NCBI GenBank assembly: GCA_903834465.1 | Contig: CAILJB010000010.1 | Span: forward strand, 1-64,000 | Reading direction: 5' to 3' | Origin: an uncultured Pseudomonadota bacterium | GTDB taxonomy: Bacteria > Pseudomonadota > Gammaproteobacteria > Methylococcales > Methylomonadaceae | DNA: 64,000 nucleotides | Shown here: piece by piece, positions 5,687 through 29,938 of the stretch | Layout of the letters: every line of letters starts with the position of its first letter | How positions within the stretch are numbered: position 1 is the stretch's first letter | The notes under the pieces: generated by a model | What the model was told of the DNA's origin: nothing | What the model saw: only the letters and a program-made list of their open reading frames with translations | Databases searched by the model: none | Made by a program: the position numbers and the translations under genes

Positions 5687-5892
5687 TTTATGGTTTTAAT
5701 TTAGGGCAATAATGAAAATCAACGGGTTATATTTTTTTGTGAATTTTGTAACCGTTCTTGACTGACATTTTTAGGTATTATTTCCATTATTTAACATAAT
5801 AAATATTATGCGAAGTTATGGTTATCTGTTCGAACTACCATTAAAAAATGTTAAAATGCCAATCACCTATCCACTCACGTTTAAATTTAATC

Positions 5893-6864
5893 ATGACTCA
5901 ACCTTATATCCCACCTCCTGAAGAAATTGACGATATTCCTGTTAAAGCAACGCCAAAATATATTCCACTGAAAGATCACGATACGCCTGTTAAAGTGTTA
6001 TTTACGGGCTACCTTTGCACAGTCGCTGTGGGTTATTTATTCGCGTTAATTCAAATTTTATTTACTCACGGCATGGCTGACGGTAAATTCGGTTTGTCTG
6101 TCGATGACATTGTATACAGCTATTACGGCAACCGTTCTGGTACTGTTTTAGAAACAAAACTCAATGGCTCCATGAAAGATAATGCCTCAGAGCAAGAACG
6201 TTTTGAGATTATTCAATGGGTGCGTGACGGCGCAGATAAAGACGATTATATCGACAATGGAATCAAAAAAATCGTTGAAAATAAATGCGTTATGTGCCAC
6301 AACAAAAACGCTGGCAGCTTACCCGATTTTGATAAATTCGAAACATTAAAAGCTCTTAGCGCACAAGATGAAGGTGCAACATTTGCGTCTTTGACGCGAA
6401 TTTCACATATTCATTTGTTTGGTATTAGTTTTATCTTTATGTTTGTCGGCATTATTTTCAGCTTTGCCGAAACAACCAAAACGAAATATAAATGTATTGC
6501 GATTGGAATGCCTTATGCGTTTTTGATTGCTGATATTTTGTCATGGTGGCTGACCAAAATTCATCCTATGTTTGCAATGCTTGTTATTTTTGCTGGTATG
6601 GGTATGGGCATGTCGTTTGTCTATATGTGGATTGTTTCATTGCTTGAAATGTGGCTTTATAAACCCGTTTTTGTCAGTGGGTTAGGCATGCACTATTTAC
6701 AATGGCGTGATAATTTACGGTCAGAAAAAACTAAAAAACAGGTTGATTTTGTTGCCTGTTTATTCACAAAAAGCGGACGGTTTATTTGCACGCAAGTAAC
6801 TACAACTGCCCTGCCCTTGTTAAAAACGTTATGGCATTTTTTACAAAGTAAAGTGCGGAAATAA
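5893..6864 (+). CDS. membrane-anchored monoheme c-type cytochrome, family unassigned
   Basis: A 323-residue protein from the ATG at 5893; an upstream in-frame ATG at 5848 adds 15 unlikely residues. It has a short proline-rich cytoplasmic N-terminus, a membrane segment at about 34-58, a periplasmic stretch with one heme c motif CVMCH (residues 132-136), and about four further membrane helices from [11 protein letters not shown] onward. The histidines in SHIH at the membrane edge could supply an axial heme ligand. The C-terminal 60 residues are basic and probably cytoplasmic. A shorter paralogue lies at 29210-29938 and shares VDDxxxSYYG, the heme motif and SHIHLFGI. Electron transfer in the inner membrane is likely; partners and family name are not known to me. 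Confidence 0.75.
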   Translation: MTQPYIPPPEEIDDIPVKATPKYIPLKDHDTPVKVLFTGYLCTVAVGYLFALIQILFTHGMADGKFGLSVDDIVYSYYGNRSGTVLETKLNGSMKDNASEQERFEIIQWVRDGADKDDYIDNGIKKIVENKCVMCHNKNAGSLPDFDKFETLKALSAQDEGATFASLTRISHIHLFGISFIFMFVGIIFSFAETTKTKYKCIAIGMPYAFLIADILSWWLTKIHPMFAMLVIFAGMGMGMSFVYMWIVSLLEMWLYKPVFVSGLGMHYLQWRDNLRSEKTKKQVDFVACLFTKSGRFICTQVTTTALPLLKTLWHFLQSKVRK

Positions 6865-6889: not shown

Positions 6890-6929
6890 GCGCGATAACG
6901 ATTCAACTCGTTGTCGCGCTTTTCTTTTT
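6890..6929 (+). terminator. rho-independent terminator after the cytochrome gene
   Basis: A 12-bp stem (GCGCGATAACGA with TCGTTGTCGCGC, one G-T pair) around a 6-base loop, followed by TTTTCTTTTT. It sits 26 bases after the cytochrome stop and immediately before tusD. Confidence 0.8.
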
Positions 6930-6939
6930 GAGCTATTTT

Positions 6940-7296
6940 ATGAAATTTGCCTTACAAATCAATTCCAGTCCTTATCACTCATCAGCGAGTTGGACGGCAT
7001 ACCGTTTTGCAGTATCTGTTTTGGCGCAACAGCATGAAATTTATCGTATTTTTTTCTATCACGATGCTATTTATCACGCGCTAAAAACGGTTACGCCTCC
7101 TGACGACGAAATGTCACTTTTCAAATGTTGGCGTGAATTGGCAAAAAATCACGATTTAGATTTAGTCGTCTGTATTTCTGCGGCGCAACGGCGTGGTCTG
7201 TTAAGTGAAAATTTAGCAACAGGTTTTCGATTAGGCGGTTTGGGGCAATTACTCGAAGCAACGTTGCTCGCAGATCGTTTTTTAGTCTTTGGGTAA
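6940..7296 (+). CDS. tusD: TusD/DsrE-like sulfurtransferase subunit
   Basis: A 118-residue DsrE-fold protein. In E. coli TusBCD the TusD subunit accepts persulfide sulfur from TusA and passes it to TusE for tRNA 2-thiouridine synthesis. In sulfur oxidisers the related DsrEFH complex feeds the reverse Dsr pathway. The active cysteine is present in VVCISAAQRRG at residue 78, the same number as in E. coli TusD, followed by the conserved GFRLGGLGQLLEATLLADR segment. The ATG at 6940 is preferred over an in-frame TTG at 6928. tusC follows after 4 bases. No tusB/dsrH gene follows, which is unusual for this heterohexamer. No dsrC/tusE is nearby, so the tRNA and sulfur-oxidation roles cannot be told apart. 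Confidence 0.85.
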   Translation: MKFALQINSSPYHSSASWTAYRFAVSVLAQQHEIYRIFFYHDAIYHALKTVTPPDDEMSLFKCWRELAKNHDLDLVVCISAAQRRGLLSENLATGFRLGGLGQLLEATLLADRFLVFG

Positions 7297-7300
7297 AACA

Positions 7301-7654
7301 ATGAAACGTTATTTATTTGTATTGCGTAAGCCCTGTTACAGTGGACTTTATGTGCAGGAAATAGTCGATATTATTTTAACAACTGCCGCATTTGAACAAG
7401 ATGTCAGTGTGCTATTATTGGATGATGCCGTTTTTCACTTGAAATCCTACCAAAACGCATTAGATTCAGGTTATAAAAATACGGCGACGTTGTTTGAAAT
7501 TTTACCAACGATGGATGTGAACGGTATTTTTGTTGAAACAGAATCGTTGTTAGAGCGTGGATTGTCTACAGAAATGTTGACACAATCCGTGAGTGTTAAA
7601 TCCCGTATTGAAATCGCCAGTTTCATAGCTGGATTTGATATTGTTATCAACTAA
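7301..7654 (+). CDS. tusC: TusC/DsrF-like sulfurtransferase subunit
   Basis: A 117-residue DsrE-fold protein starting [14 protein letters not shown]. It has the middle motif [10 protein letters not shown] and the C-terminal [11 protein letters not shown] typical of TusC/DsrF. In the known complexes this subunit is structural and lies between TusB and TusD. The ATG at 7301 lies 4 bases after the tusD stop, so the two are translated from one transcript. The stop overlaps the end of the convergent chemoreceptor gene by 4 bases, which leaves no room for a downstream tusB. Confidence 0.8.
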
Positions 7655-22722: not shown

Positions 22723-23154
22723 TTACTGATAAAAAACCGTAAAATCGTTCAGTGTAGCTTGGGTTTGTGGCAAATTTACCGCGCTAAACGCATTTACGCC
22801 TACTCGTGATAGATAAAACGCTTGGTCTGCTAAATAAGAACCCAGCGCTCGAATTTCCCCTTGATAATCATAGCGATTTCGCAATAAATACGCTTGCGAA
22901 AAACTGCGACCATCGGCAAAATCAGAAAAATCTAATTCCACCAACGCCAATTGAGACAAGTCGGCAACTAAGTCAGTCACATCATCAGCTGGTGAAATTC
23001 GTACACCCAAATTTCCTTCACGCGCCACTAATTGCGTTTTTTCTTGTTTCCAACGATTTAATGACACACTGATATTACCTGCTATCACCGGCGCGTCATC
23101 GGACAAATATGTCCAGTGGTTATCGATAATTTGTTTGTTTTTAATGATTTGCAT
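22723..23154 (-). CDS. DUF934 family protein linked to sulfite reductase
   Basis: A 143-residue protein of the DUF934 family, recognised by the segment LALVELDFSDFADGRSFSQA followed by LRNRYDYQGEIRALG. These proteins are almost always encoded next to nitrite/sulfite reductase or cysH genes, and their biochemical role is not established. The start lies 14 bases inside the cysI reading frame, so translation is coupled. No cofactor-binding motif is visible. Assimilatory sulfate reduction is the likely context. Confidence 0.85.
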   Translation of the reverse strand: MQIIKNKQIIDNHWTYLSDDAPVIAGNISVSLNRWKQEKTQLVAREGNLGVRISPADDVTDLVADLSQLALVELDFSDFADGRSFSQAYLLRNRYDYQGEIRALGSYLADQAFYLSRVGVNAFSAVNLPQTQATLNDFTVFYQ

Positions 23155-24793
23155 AAACTTTCTCCTTGAAAGGTTCGATTCCCACGCGCTTAACGGTTTC
23201 TAAAAAGGTTTCTTCATCCAGACGTTGTTGAACATACACGTCTAAAATAATTCCCACAGCCTGCGCGATTTCATTTTTAGGAATGGAAGGTCCTAAACGT
23301 TCGCCAATTACCGCTTCATTAGATGACGAACCGCCCAATGTGAGCTGATACCATTCCACGCCTTTTTTATCGACCCCTAAAATACCAATGTGTCCCACAC
23401 TTTGATGAGCGCAACCATTCATACATCCCGACATGTTGATATTTACATCACCAATATCATGTAAATAATCCATGTTATCCAAAATTTCGTTGATTTCTTT
23501 AGCAATACCAATCGAACCCGCGTTGGCAAGCGAACAGAAATCTAAACCTGGACAGCAAATCATGTCCGTTGCTGCTCCAATATTTGGCGTGGCTAATTTT
23601 GCGGCATTCAACAATTGCCACAACTGGAATAAATCCGCTTGTTTTACATCGGCAAAAACTAAATTTTGGCGATGCGTACTACGTACTTCACCAAAACTGT
23701 AACGAACGGCTAAATCTGCAATGGTGTCTAATTGTTCTGCCGTTAAATCACCAGGCGGGCTATCTGGCGATTTTAGCGATAAGAACACGATACGATAACC
23801 GACCATTTTATGTTCAACAGTATTCTTCTCTACCCATTTGGCAAAAGTTTTATTTTCGTTTTGATATTGCTCAAAAGTTGTATTCTGTGCGGCTTTTTTA
23901 TCATAATGAAATGGTGTGAAATGCGCTTTCATCGCCGTGAAACGTTCTCCGCTCACTTCCAACTTATCACGAATCAACGCCCATTCTTTATCGACTAATC
24001 CTGAAAATTCTTCCAAGCCCGTTTCTTTTACTAGAATTTTGATACGCGCTTTATATTTATTATCACGTCGTCCGAATAAATTATAAATCCGTAACGTTGC
24101 TTCTAAATAAGACAGAATATGTTTTTTCGCTAAAAACGGTTTAATGACTTGTCCGATAATCGGCGTACGTCCTAAACCACCGCCCACTAACACTCTAAAA
24201 CCAATTTCACCTGCGTCATTTTTGACCAAATGCAAACCAATATCGTGAAATTGGGTTGCTGCTCTGTCAGTTAGCGAACCGCTCACTGCAATTTTGAATT
24301 TACGCGGCAGATAATCAAATTCAGGATGCAACGTTGTCCATTGACGAATCAATTCGCAATACGGGCGCGAATCTTCGATTTCATCGACGCTCACACCTGC
24401 TAAATGGTCGCTGGTGGTGTTACGCATACAATTACCGCTGGTTTGAATCGCGTGCATTTGTACTTCTGCGAGTTCTGCCAAAATATCAGGAATTTGTTCT
24501 AATTTTGGCCAGTTGTATTGCACATTTTGGCGCGTGGTGAAATGGCAATAATTATGGTCATACGTTCTAGCAATGTGCGCGAGTTTATGCAATTGTTTTG
24601 CATTAAGTACGCCGTAAGGAATTGCCACACGCAACATAGGTCCATGCGTTTGAATATAGACACCATTTCTTAAACGCAATGCACGATAGCCGTCTTCAGA
24701 AATTTCGCCGTTTAAAAACTGTTCTGTTTGTCGCCTAAATTGTGCGACTCGTTCTTCAATAAGAATTTGATCGTTGTGATTATATTGGTACAT
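23141..24793 (-). CDS. cysI: assimilatory nitrite/sulfite reductase hemoprotein
   Basis: A 550-residue siroheme/[4Fe-4S] reductase. Two ferredoxin-like half-domains and two siroheme domains are recognisable. TSGNCMRNTTSD and TTRQNVQYNW lie in the first half. The cluster-binding cysteines appear as CPGLDFC and CMNGC around residues 413-460, with the bridging cysteine in the latter. Reaction: six-electron reduction of sulfite to sulfide (or nitrite to ammonia). No flavoprotein CysJ subunit is adjacent, and association with DUF934 is typical of ferredoxin- or NAD(P)H-linked assimilatory enzymes. The next gene upstream lies after 183 bases on the same strand, so this is probably a two-gene operon. 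Confidence 0.9.
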   Translation of the reverse strand: MYQYNHNDQILIEERVAQFRRQTEQFLNGEISEDGYRALRLRNGVYIQTHGPMLRVAIPYGVLNAKQLHKLAHIARTYDHNYCHFTTRQNVQYNWPKLEQIPDILAELAEVQMHAIQTSGNCMRNTTSDHLAGVSVDEIEDSRPYCELIRQWTTLHPEFDYLPRKFKIAVSGSLTDRAATQFHDIGLHLVKNDAGEIGFRVLVGGGLGRTPIIGQVIKPFLAKKHILSYLEATLRIYNLFGRRDNKYKARIKILVKETGLEEFSGLVDKEWALIRDKLEVSGERFTAMKAHFTPFHYDKKAAQNTTFEQYQNENKTFAKWVEKNTVEHKMVGYRIVFLSLKSPDSPPGDLTAEQLDTIADLAVRYSFGEVRSTHRQNLVFADVKQADLFQLWQLLNAAKLATPNIGAATDMICCPGLDFCSLANAGSIGIAKEINEILDNMDYLHDIGDVNINMSGCMNGCAHQSVGHIGILGVDKKGVEWYQLTLGGSSSNEAVIGERLGPSIPKNEIAQAVGIILDVYVQQRLDEETFLETVKRVGIEPFKEKVYANH

Positions 24794-24976: not shown

Positions 24977-25288
24977 TCATTGCGCTATTTCAAGTTCTGA
25001 AAGCAGATTAGGGTATTTATCGATTATTTTTAGTAAACATATTGCCGCTCCAGATGGTTTAGAGCGTCCTTGTTCCCAATCACGCAATGTTGCTGCCGGC
25101 GTATTGATTGCGTTTGAAAAACGTTGTTGTGATAACTTCAATTTCGTGCGGACTTGGCGAATTAAAATTTGTTCAGGTGTATGCACGAGACCGATGCCAT
25201 TTTGCATTTCTACCAAACCTTGCCGTAAATCATCAAGCGGCATTCCCGCATCTGCTTCAATGGCTTGTGCTATTTTTTCAATGTCCAT
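24977..25288 (-). CDS. XRE-family antitoxin/regulator
   Basis: A 103-residue protein with a helix-turn-helix of the XRE class in its second half (LKLSQQRFSNAINTPAATLRDWEQGRSKPSG). The N-terminal half, with IRQVRTKLKLSQ preceded by a short helical segment, fits the NadS/HigA group. Such proteins bind the partner toxin and repress their own promoter. The start codon directly follows the toxin stop codon with no gap, so the two are translated together. The order toxin-then-antitoxin is the HigBA type. Confidence 0.8.
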   Translation of the reverse strand: MDIEKIAQAIEADAGMPLDDLRQGLVEMQNGIGLVHTPEQILIRQVRTKLKLSQQRFSNAINTPAATLRDWEQGRSKPSGAAICLLKIIDKYPNLLSELEIAQ

Positions 25289-25570
25289 TTAAGTCGCCTT
25301 TTTAATATTTTTCTGTTCTGATTTTTGATACATCGTAATCAAAACGATTTCCTCGCGCTCGGTTAAATTAAAATAAATCACGCGAACACCACCGCGTTTA
25401 CCTTTTCCTGTTATTGCCCAACGTATCTTTCTCGCACCTTCTGCATTTGGAATCACGTCGCCAGCAAATGGATTTTGTGCAATCCAATCAATGAATGCTA
25501 AACGCTCATCTTCTGTCCAACAATAGGCGGCTTGTTTTTGAAATGTTGGGGTTTCGATAACGGTTTTCAT
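25289..25570 (-). CDS. RelE/HigB-type toxin
   Basis: A 93-residue basic protein of the RelE/ParE superfamily. The fold is suggested by FIDWIAQNPFAGDVIPNAEGARKIRWA, then GKRGGVRVIYF and the strand IVLITMYQKSEQKNI. Members cleave mRNA on the ribosome. The basic residues KIRW, KRGGVR and the C-terminal Lys are in the expected places. The ATG at 25570 is preferred over in-frame starts at 25579 and 25594, which lie in or upstream of a TATAAT. No ribosome-binding site precedes it, and the -10 element ends 7 bases away, so the message may be leaderless. Confidence 0.8.
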   Translation of the reverse strand: MKTVIETPTFQKQAAYCWTEDERLAFIDWIAQNPFAGDVIPNAEGARKIRWAITGKGKRGGVRVIYFNLTEREEIVLITMYQKSEQKNIKKAT

Positions 25571-25577
25571 GCGTGAC

Positions 25578-25583
25578 ATTATA
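25578..25583 (-). promoter_or_regulatory. -10 element for the toxin-antitoxin operon
   Basis: Read on the minus strand this is TATAAT, followed by 7 bases and then the toxin ATG. A transcript started at the usual distance would begin at or next to the start codon. No recognisable -35 hexamer is seen. Confidence 0.4.
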
Positions 25584-25619
25584 CTGGTTATCAATCAGTA
25601 GTCGTGCCATAAATAACTT

Positions 25620-27751: not shown

Positions 27752-29131
27752 ATGAGTAATCTTCTATTGCAAAATAAAAAATCAAATTTAATATTAACAA
27801 TTTCGTTATTGACAACTACTTCAGCAACGTTATTGATGAGTTCGACAGTCCAAGCTGTACCAAGTTTTTCTCGCCAGACAGGCGCGGCATGTAGTCAATG
27901 TCACACGCAATCTTTTGGCCCCAATTTAACACCGTTCGGACGTGATTTTAAATTGGGTGGTTATACGATGAGCAATGGTAAAGAATCTAAAATACCGGCA
28001 GTAAGCGGTATGATTCAAGGTTCGTTTACCCATACCAAAGGTGATAATCAAGATCAAAATAGCACGCCAGCCAATAACTATAATAAAAATAATAACTTTA
28101 CGTTTGACCAAGCCTCTCTTTTTTACGCAGGTAAAATTTACGGCAAAGTGGGAGCGTTTAGTCAATTATCCTTTGATGGTTCAACGGAGCGATTGGCGTT
28201 AGACAATACCGATATTCGTTTTGCGGATAATAATGAATTTTTTGATACACCCGTTACTTACGGTATTTCAGTAAATAATAATCCCACTGCTCAAGATTTG
28301 TGGAATACAACCAGCGCGTGGGGATTTCCATATAACGGCAGTCCGGTGATGCCTTCTGTCGGATCAACTTCTGTCATTGATGGTGCATTTAGTACCCAAG
28401 TGGGCGGTGCAACCGCTTATACAATGATTAACAATTTATTGTATTTAGAAGCGGGTGGTTATGCGTCACTGGCTAATAATATGCAAAAAAGTTTAGGCGT
28501 TGCGAATGCTGGTCAACAACAAATTGATGGTGCAGCACCTTACTGGCGCGTGGCATTGCAAAAAGATTGGAAAGGACATTTCGTTTCAGTGGGACATTAC
28601 GGCATGAGTGCAAATGTTTTCCCTGGACGTGATAAAAGTCTTGGTGCAACCGATAATTTCACGGATTTTGGTTTTGATACAACATATCAATATATGGCAA
28701 ATCCAAAACATATTTTTGAAATCAAATCGACCTACATTTATGAAGATCAAAAATTATCTTATACCAATATTTCTAATCAATTGAATCCAAATGCGCGGTC
28801 ATATTTGAACACGTTCAAAATTAACGCGGCATACACATTCGATCAAACGTATGGTTTAACGTTTGGTTATAACAATATTAAAGGTTCAAATGCTTTGACA
28901 TTGAATACCGCAGATGATGGAACAAACTTTTACAGTTCGAGCAAACCCAATAGCGAATTTTACACCGCAGAATTGGTTTATGTGCCATTTGGTAAAGCGA
29001 GTTCTTATGCGTCACCTTGGTTAAATTTGCGTACGAGTTTGCAATACATCGGTTATTCGCAAGCCAATGGTACAACGCAACAAAGCACCACAAATAACAC
29101 TTTCATGATTAACGGTTGGTTAATATTCTAG
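27752..29131 (+). CDS. Cyc2-like fused outer-membrane cytochrome-porin
   Basis: A 459-residue exported protein: signal peptide about 1-35 (cleavage likely after STVQA), then immediately one heme c motif CSQCH (residues 47-51), then a beta-rich region of about 390 residues ending in a terminal Phe (NGWLIF) as in outer-membrane barrels. The N-terminal block VPSFSRQTGAACSQCH, followed by LTPFGRDFKLGGYT, matches the pattern of Cyc2, a fused cytochrome-porin that oxidises Fe(II) at the cell surface in acidophilic and neutrophilic iron oxidisers. Homologues also occur in bacteria not known to oxidise iron, so the substrate is uncertain. An AGGAG precedes the ATG. A terminator lies between it and the membrane cytochrome. 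Confidence 0.72.
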   Translation: MSNLLLQNKKSNLILTISLLTTTSATLLMSSTVQAVPSFSRQTGAACSQCHTQSFGPNLTPFGRDFKLGGYTMSNGKESKIPAVSGMIQGSFTHTKGDNQDQNSTPANNYNKNNNFTFDQASLFYAGKIYGKVGAFSQLSFDGSTERLALDNTDIRFADNNEFFDTPVTYGISVNNNPTAQDLWNTTSAWGFPYNGSPVMPSVGSTSVIDGAFSTQVGGATAYTMINNLLYLEAGGYASLANNMQKSLGVANAGQQQIDGAAPYWRVALQKDWKGHFVSVGHYGMSANVFPGRDKSLGATDNFTDFGFDTTYQYMANPKHIFEIKSTYIYEDQKLSYTNISNQLNPNARSYLNTFKINAAYTFDQTYGLTFGYNNIKGSNALTLNTADDGTNFYSSSKPNSEFYTAELVYVPFGKASSYASPWLNLRTSLQYIGYSQANGTTQQSTTNNTFMINGWLIF

Positions 29132-29157: not shown

Positions 29158-29194
29158 AAAGGCGTTCAAACAAATTTGAACGCCTTTATTTTTT
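29158..29194 (+). terminator. rho-independent terminator after the cytochrome-porin gene
   Basis: A 13-bp perfect stem (AAAGGCGTTCAAA/TTTGAACGCCTTT) with a 4-base loop followed by ATTTTTT. It lies 16 bases before the next cytochrome start codon, so that gene is either read through at lower level or has its own promoter within or before the hairpin. Confidence 0.85.
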
Positions 29195-29209
29195 AGAGGG
29201 TTACAAATT

Positions 29210-29938
29210 ATGGCTGATAAAAGTTTTATTCGATTCAAAGATATTTCGATTAGCGAACGTATTTTAAATACGGTTTTTTTGTTGACGATTGGATTAGGTT
29301 ATTTAGCGGCGTTAGCAAATATGTATTACACGCATCAAGGTTTGGACGGAAAAGCGGGGCTTACGGTGGATGACGTGGTGATTAGTTATTACGGTTCGAC
29401 CACACAAACGCGCTTGGGAACAGCCGTTACAGGCATTATGAAACCCAATTTAAAAATCAAAAGTGATCAAGATGTGATTTTAAATTGGATTCATTCGGGC
29501 GCAGACGAAGCAACGTATGACGAAAAAATTGCGCCCATTCTAAATCGTGATTGTGTGCTTTGTCATACGCCAAGCATTAACCCTTCTTTGCCTGATTTGA
29601 CCAATTATGCAGGGGTTTCTGAAGTTTCACACGCTGGCGGTGCAACCATTCCAACCTTAATTCGCGTATCGCATATTCATTTGTTTGGTATTGCGTTCAT
29701 TTTATTTTTCATTGGCAAGATTTTCCTGCTCTGTGAAATCAATGTTTATGTAAAACGTGTCGCGATGGTTGTACCATTTGCTGCAATGTTACTTGACGTT
29801 GTCTCTTGGTTTATTACAAAATCGATTCCTGGTTTTGCTTACGTTGTGATTTTTAGTGGCGCATTGATGGGCTTATCAATGGGACTGCAAATTTTGTTAA
29901 GCATTTATCAAATGTGGTTTTTTTCAGAAGACAATTAA
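29210..29938 (+). CDS. membrane-anchored monoheme c-type cytochrome, second paralogue
   Basis: A 242-residue paralogue of the protein at 5893-6864. It has a membrane segment at about 18-38, a periplasmic stretch with [13 protein letters not shown] and one heme c motif CVLCH (residues 115-119), then [10 protein letters not shown] and four membrane helices. It lacks the proline-rich N-terminus and the basic C-terminal tail of the longer copy. Its place directly after the cytochrome-porin suggests it could pass electrons at the inner membrane in the same chain; this is inference from position. The 3' end overlaps the end of convergent lipA by 4 bases. Confidence 0.75.

Follow-up and report, generated by a model that had tools for sequence, protein, structure and literature searches.

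What does a gene for a Cyc2-like protein do in the organism that carries it, and with which partner does its product work? Proteins of the Cyc2 kind are outer-membrane haem proteins known to draw electrons from extracellular dissolved iron, and a gene of this type lies at positions 27752-29131 (+) of the window, that is, the whole stretch of 64,000 nucleotides analysed here. The first-pass annotation had recognised the Cyc2 family and placed the gene in a probable sulfur oxidiser. The family assignment holds, the sulfur-oxidising host does not, and a conserved gene for a membrane haem protein just downstream, here called MEM, had been overlooked.

The host

The host is a Methylococcales methanotroph. 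Its genome contains two genes of the AMO/PmoA family as well as genes for subunit I of heme-copper oxidases, soxB was not found in it by TIGR04486, and the named organisms among 26 relatives obtained in a contig search are Methylococcales methanotrophs. Given the pmoA-family genes, the absence of soxB and these relatives, the premise of a sulfur-oxidising host was dropped. Its source was probably the sulfur-looking genes of the window, namely a CysI-like reductase gene at 23141-24793 and genes for two small TusD/TusC (DsrEF)-like proteins at 6928-7654 (+), all recognised by eye, the latter likely to act in tRNA sulfur transfer. The window also holds a HigB/HigA-like toxin-antitoxin pair at 24977-25594 (-) and, at 43404-63899 (-), a pair of chemotaxis clusters in succession (CheA, CheW, CheR and CheB-like) with long chemoreceptors composed of repeated segments, an apparent duplication. 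A comparison of the window with Rfam gave no match.

A Cyc2 homologue with a variant motif

The cyc2-like open reading frame begins with ATG, with AGGAG 6 nt upstream, and encodes a protein of 459 aa which the reading frame, alignment A1, the profiles and the tree identify as Cyc2-like, a predicted outer-membrane fused monohaem cytochrome-porin. A Sec signal peptide (aa 1-35, 27752-27856), recognised by eye and from hydropathy, is predicted to be cleaved between VQA and VPSF, and the mature N-terminus following ...SSTVQA is then AVPSFSRQTGAACSQCHTQSFGPNLTPFGRDFKLGGYT. The alignments delimit a Cyc2 cytochrome block, AVPSFSRQTGAACSQCHTQSFGPNLTPFGRDFK (aa 35-67, 27854-27952), which is nearly invariant across 20 relatives in alignment A1 and in which the pattern PSFxRQTGxxCxxCH...FGRxFKxxGYT, pointed out earlier, is exact. 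It includes the single haem c motif, CSQCH (C47-H51, 27890-27904), situated directly at the mature N-terminus as had been claimed; its Cys and His residues are invariant in alignments A1 and A3. The remainder, from about aa 83 to the terminal Phe at aa 459 (27998-29128), is probably the porin-like beta-barrel that had been proposed: amphipathic stretches are numerous, no hydrophobic helix occurs beyond the signal peptide (the highest 19-residue hydropathy there is 0.79) and the C-terminus is NGWLIF. The AlphaFold model is mostly beta, with 14 strands, at low confidence (pLDDT 36).

The protein is a Cyc2 homologue, a conclusion supported by profiles, motif and tree. The resemblance is far from chance: a profile built from Cyc2-like proteins excluding those of Methylococcales matches it significantly and over almost its full length (E 3.1e-135, aa 35-459), and matches no other window ORF of at least 40 aa. 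A profile of the Cluster 1 copies of probable Zetaproteobacteria likewise has this ORF as its sole match in the window (E 5.1e-17), while a Cluster 3-type profile matches none of the window ORFs. Profile-profile comparison gave a probability of 99.2% against Cluster 1-type and 96.6% against Cluster 3-type proteins, covering the haem end only. The single sequence has no match in Pfam, NCBIfam or the PDB sequences, and the family profile has no convincing match in the PDB; the absence from Pfam is to be expected, since 23 diverse Cyc2-like members yielded only two stray matches there.

Cyc2 has been defined by a signal peptide, one CXXCH, the motif AXPXFAR[Q/K][T/Y], a PXL motif, a minimum length of 365 aa and a porin of 16 strands (Keffer 2021, PMC8406198). 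The corresponding segment here is AVPSFSRQT-GAA-CSQCH-TQSFG-PNL, and the 459 aa of the protein exceed the minimum length. The consensus upstream of CXXCH is thus matched at every position but one, where F-S-R stands for F-A-R, and the PXL motif (PNL, P57-L59) lies 2 residues farther from the haem than in FPEL-type Cyc2, a GPxL spacing which is also seen in several other families. The rest of the motif agrees. The exact FAR is present in only 2 of 20 close relatives, the variants of the clade being FAR, FSR and FTR, so that a strict PXFAR filter would miss most of the clade. Indeed, PXFAR serves as a hard filter in PMC8406198, and would exclude the window protein despite its clear homology.

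Position among known Cyc2 proteins

The placement was examined in a quick tree of 117 rows, none of them a named reference sequence. Cluster 3-type copies (motif FARKY) occupy one side of a branch and Cluster 1-type copies form a second group; the window protein falls outside both, as one of the 81 rows that make up a third group (SH-aLRT 100), and within this in a clade of 17 rows, all from Methylococcales (SH-aLRT 100). We infer by elimination, and in agreement with a published FeGenie result that assigns Methylobacter Cyc2 to cluster 2 (PMC12810054), that the protein probably belongs to the large Cluster 2-type branch. An Acidithiobacillus-type rus operon, sought as a Cluster 2 anchor beside the class-level Cyc2 matches, was not clearly present at any of them. 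The families f47 and f67, the origin of the Cluster 1 copies, are probably Zetaproteobacteria, judging from their kinship (same phylum, other class) and from the occurrence, in nearly all of them, of Cyc2 of the two types that the literature gives for that class.

With the Cluster 1 protein of Mariprofundus ferrooxydans PV-1 and the Cluster 2 protein of Acidithiobacillus ferrooxidans, the window protein shares the signal peptide, the one N-terminal CxxCH, the A.P.F.R[QK][TY] pattern before the haem, a downstream PxL, a GRxFK-like block and the porin-like C-terminus. It differs in having F-S-R for F-A-R and a spacer between haem and PxL that is 2 residues longer, and its locus differs in lacking adjacent Cyc1, rusticyanin or cox genes and in belonging to a methanotroph. 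It also closely resembles the Cyc2 found in gammaproteobacterial methanotrophs, Methylobacter among them, with which it shares the kind of host and the 17-row clade (SH-aLRT 100) that includes Methylobacter and Methylovulum proteins. Passages in the literature noted Cyc2 in Methylobacter in 2019 (PMC6344600), listed it in 2025 (PMC12810054), and report two cyc2 genes in Methylobacter S3L5C, where Cyc2 rises with dissolved organic matter (PMC12211021). The window Cyc2 itself is therefore an ordinary member of a set known in methanotrophs since 2019. In their relevant passages these three papers record the gene or track its expression, and do not describe an adjacent MEM gene or a terminator.

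A predicted membrane haem protein encoded beside cyc2

The MEM gene (29210-29938, +) starts 78 bp downstream of cyc2 and encodes a protein of 242 aa for which sequence, hydropathy and a model predict four transmembrane helices and one periplasmic haem c; the AlphaFold model is weak (pLDDT 56). Its haem motif, CVLCH (C115-H119, 29552-29566), is invariant in 21 divergent MEM proteins. In the alignment, H155 and H157 (SHIHLF, 29672-29680) are likewise invariant and mark the periplasmic start of the second transmembrane helix, where they may form a haem or quinone site. The full set of positions invariant across the 21 proteins comprises C115, C118, H119, M77, S154-H155-x-H157-L-F, D196, W200 and T203. 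Neither as a single sequence nor as a profile did MEM give a useful match in Pfam, NCBIfam or the PDB. The family appears new: it is undescribed in the literature passages dealing with methanotroph Cyc2, a scope that leaves aside subscription papers and Field 2015, to which a passage of PMC7029218 credits a conserved Zetaproteobacterial cytochrome cassette.

MEM relatives are near-universal in the probable Zetaproteobacteria, where a homologue about 53-56% identical, with the haem and HIH motifs kept, takes part in a conserved cytochrome cluster located away from cyc2. In this cluster MEM is typically followed by a monohaem cytochrome c of ~97 aa, a trihaem cytochrome c and hemN. The window itself encodes a second, divergent MEM paralogue at 5848-6864 (+), of 338 aa, with one CxxCH and the HIH motif retained; its subfamily is widespread in Gammaproteobacteria and mostly solitary, and was found once in a hydrogenase operon (L296).

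A hairpin search between cyc2 and MEM revealed an intrinsic terminator at 29158-29196 (+), with a 13-bp stem, a 4-nt loop and a T tract. Of 31 cyc2-mem gaps, 15 contain a stem of at least 9 bp followed by a T tract, compared to a mean of 0.47 and a maximum of 3 in 100 shufflings, and the stem sequences vary between subclades. A strong terminator in the gap weakens the idea of a simple cyc2-mem operon. We read it as a means of producing more Cyc2 than MEM, but separate promoters would account for it equally well.

Proposed electron uptake and its possible donors

Surface electron uptake, with iron, humics or another compound as substrate, is the best reading of the sequence evidence. We hold it to be rather probable that the gene is a Cluster 2-type Cyc2 of a methanotroph, through which electrons would pass from a dissolved donor to the haem, on to periplasmic cytochromes and from there to MEM. 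The barrel would sit in the outer membrane with its single haem plugged at the periplasmic end, and a dissolved reductant, such as Fe(II) or reduced humic quinones, would reduce this haem from outside. Periplasmic c-type cytochromes would then pass the electron to MEM, a putative membrane-anchored monohaem cytochrome which may connect the pool of periplasmic carriers with the inner-membrane chain, either an oxidase or the quinone pool, and the terminator would probably keep Cyc2 above MEM in abundance. Under a shortage of methane or oxygen, the extra electrons could serve methane mono-oxygenase, respiration or reverse transport.

A narrower interpretation is a dedicated Fe(II) oxidase: the protein would act specifically on dissolved Fe2+ and so supply lithotrophic energy, in the manner of Zetaproteobacteria, and the host would be a facultative iron-oxidising methanotroph. 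Demonstrated Fe(II) oxidases exist in Clusters 1, 2 and 3 (PMC8406198), and the near-universal MEM kin of the probable Zetaproteobacteria point in the same direction. However, the window protein lies outside the Cluster 1 group, that of the neutrophilic iron oxidisers, Cyc2 is present in many organisms without known iron oxidation, and the sole methanotroph expression result found concerns dissolved organic matter, the iron content of which is left open in the relevant passages of PMC12211021. We consider dedication to iron less likely than not.

Linkage of cyc2 and MEM across genomes

Methylococcales provided 52 distinct cyc2 loci, of which 49 have sufficient flanking sequence for a test of neighbours. 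At 34 of the 49, MEM is the next gene downstream of cyc2 and has the same orientation; elsewhere it lies upstream on the same strand (two loci, in one of them 716 bp away) or on the opposite strand (one locus), and 12 loci have none nearby. The genes flanking the pair vary in most genomes, although an upstream nhaD is common to some near relatives, and the linkage is therefore more than frozen gene order. A separate Methylococcales Cyc2 clade (L148-L151) has two small monohaem cytochromes c following the gene in place of MEM.

The adjacency recurs in other families of Gammaproteobacteria, with divergent branches of Cyc2. MEM comes directly after cyc2 on the same strand in genome G565, outside Methylococcales, and in G736 (L235:5055-8199) it stands one gene away, in a same-strand run that encodes, in this order, a monohaem cytochrome c, a Cyc2 resembling Cluster 3, a small protein and MEM; this run adjoins 2-oxoacid oxidoreductase-like genes. 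In G584 the two genes are a few hundred bases apart on opposite strands, and in G826 the distance is about 3 kb. Among 369 genomes of the class, 64 have Cyc2, 65 have MEM and 21 have both, versus about 11 expected (Fisher p 8e-4, a value that ignores relatedness). In the MEM tree the label "Cyc2-adjacent" is scattered and needs 12 changes, at least seven of them forced by starred branches, and the tree unites the partner clade of Methylococcales with the main clade of the Zetaproteobacteria type (99).

MEM might nevertheless be an unrelated hitchhiker, the two genes co-travelling without any interaction of their products. The varied flanks, the terminator in the gap and the frequency of MEM in genomes lacking cyc2 would fit such an origin, whereas the recurrence of the adjacency across several host families, among divergent representatives of both protein families, and the additional monohaem cytochrome c of the L235 locus, speak against it and make it improbable. 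What the distribution does suggest is that MEM probably does not belong to Cyc2 alone, as it is commoner (123 of the 151 genomes of the order, versus 40 with cyc2), outlives broken cyc2 genes and has one subfamily that is mostly solitary. Many genomes carry it without cyc2, and at L153, L169 and L170 cyc2 is fragmented or split by stops while the adjacent MEM is intact or nearly so. In two methanotroph loci (L119:1652-6226 and L173:1262-5923) MEM comes directly after genes for a hexahaem protein of 740 aa and a barrel-like protein of 535 aa, a pair that may be an alternative outer-membrane conduit.

The patchy occurrence of cyc2 in the order (40/151) and its decay in some genomes fit an accessory trait, and would suit a protective or acquisitive role in which Fe(II) is oxidised at the surface to curb Fenton damage, or metal is taken up by the porin, with no gain of energy; as the conserved membrane haem partner suggests a flow of electrons to the inner membrane, and no genes for iron transport were recognised among the neighbours in the window, we regard this role as quite doubtful. 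Least probable of all is an export in which, under hypoxia, methane-derived electrons would pass to iron oxides or to humic quinones, a direction raised for methylotroph Cyc2 and porin-cytochrome genes in a passage of He 2019 and in keeping with passages that link methanotrophs to iron-oxide and humic reduction, since the potential of PV-1 Cyc2 (208 mV; PMC8406198) is high for the reduction of most Fe(III) oxides, a single monohaem barrel fits a dissolved donor, and a search of the host genome with one model, that of cytochrome c7, gave no multihaem candidate.

With electron uptake as the preferred reading, we tentatively propose, as a suggestion with somewhat less than even prospects, that MEM is an unrecognised family of inner-membrane monohaem cytochromes common to methanotrophs and iron-oxidising Zetaproteobacteria, acting at the inner membrane as partner to Cyc2, possibly also to other outer-membrane conduits (L119, L173), and bridging Cyc2 to the respiratory chain. 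How neutrophilic iron oxidisers convey electrons from Cyc2 to the inner membrane is unsettled, and the conserved MEM is a testable candidate for this step. If true, this would help to explain how iron or humic matter may act as a second electron source for lake methanotrophs, which are a major methane filter.
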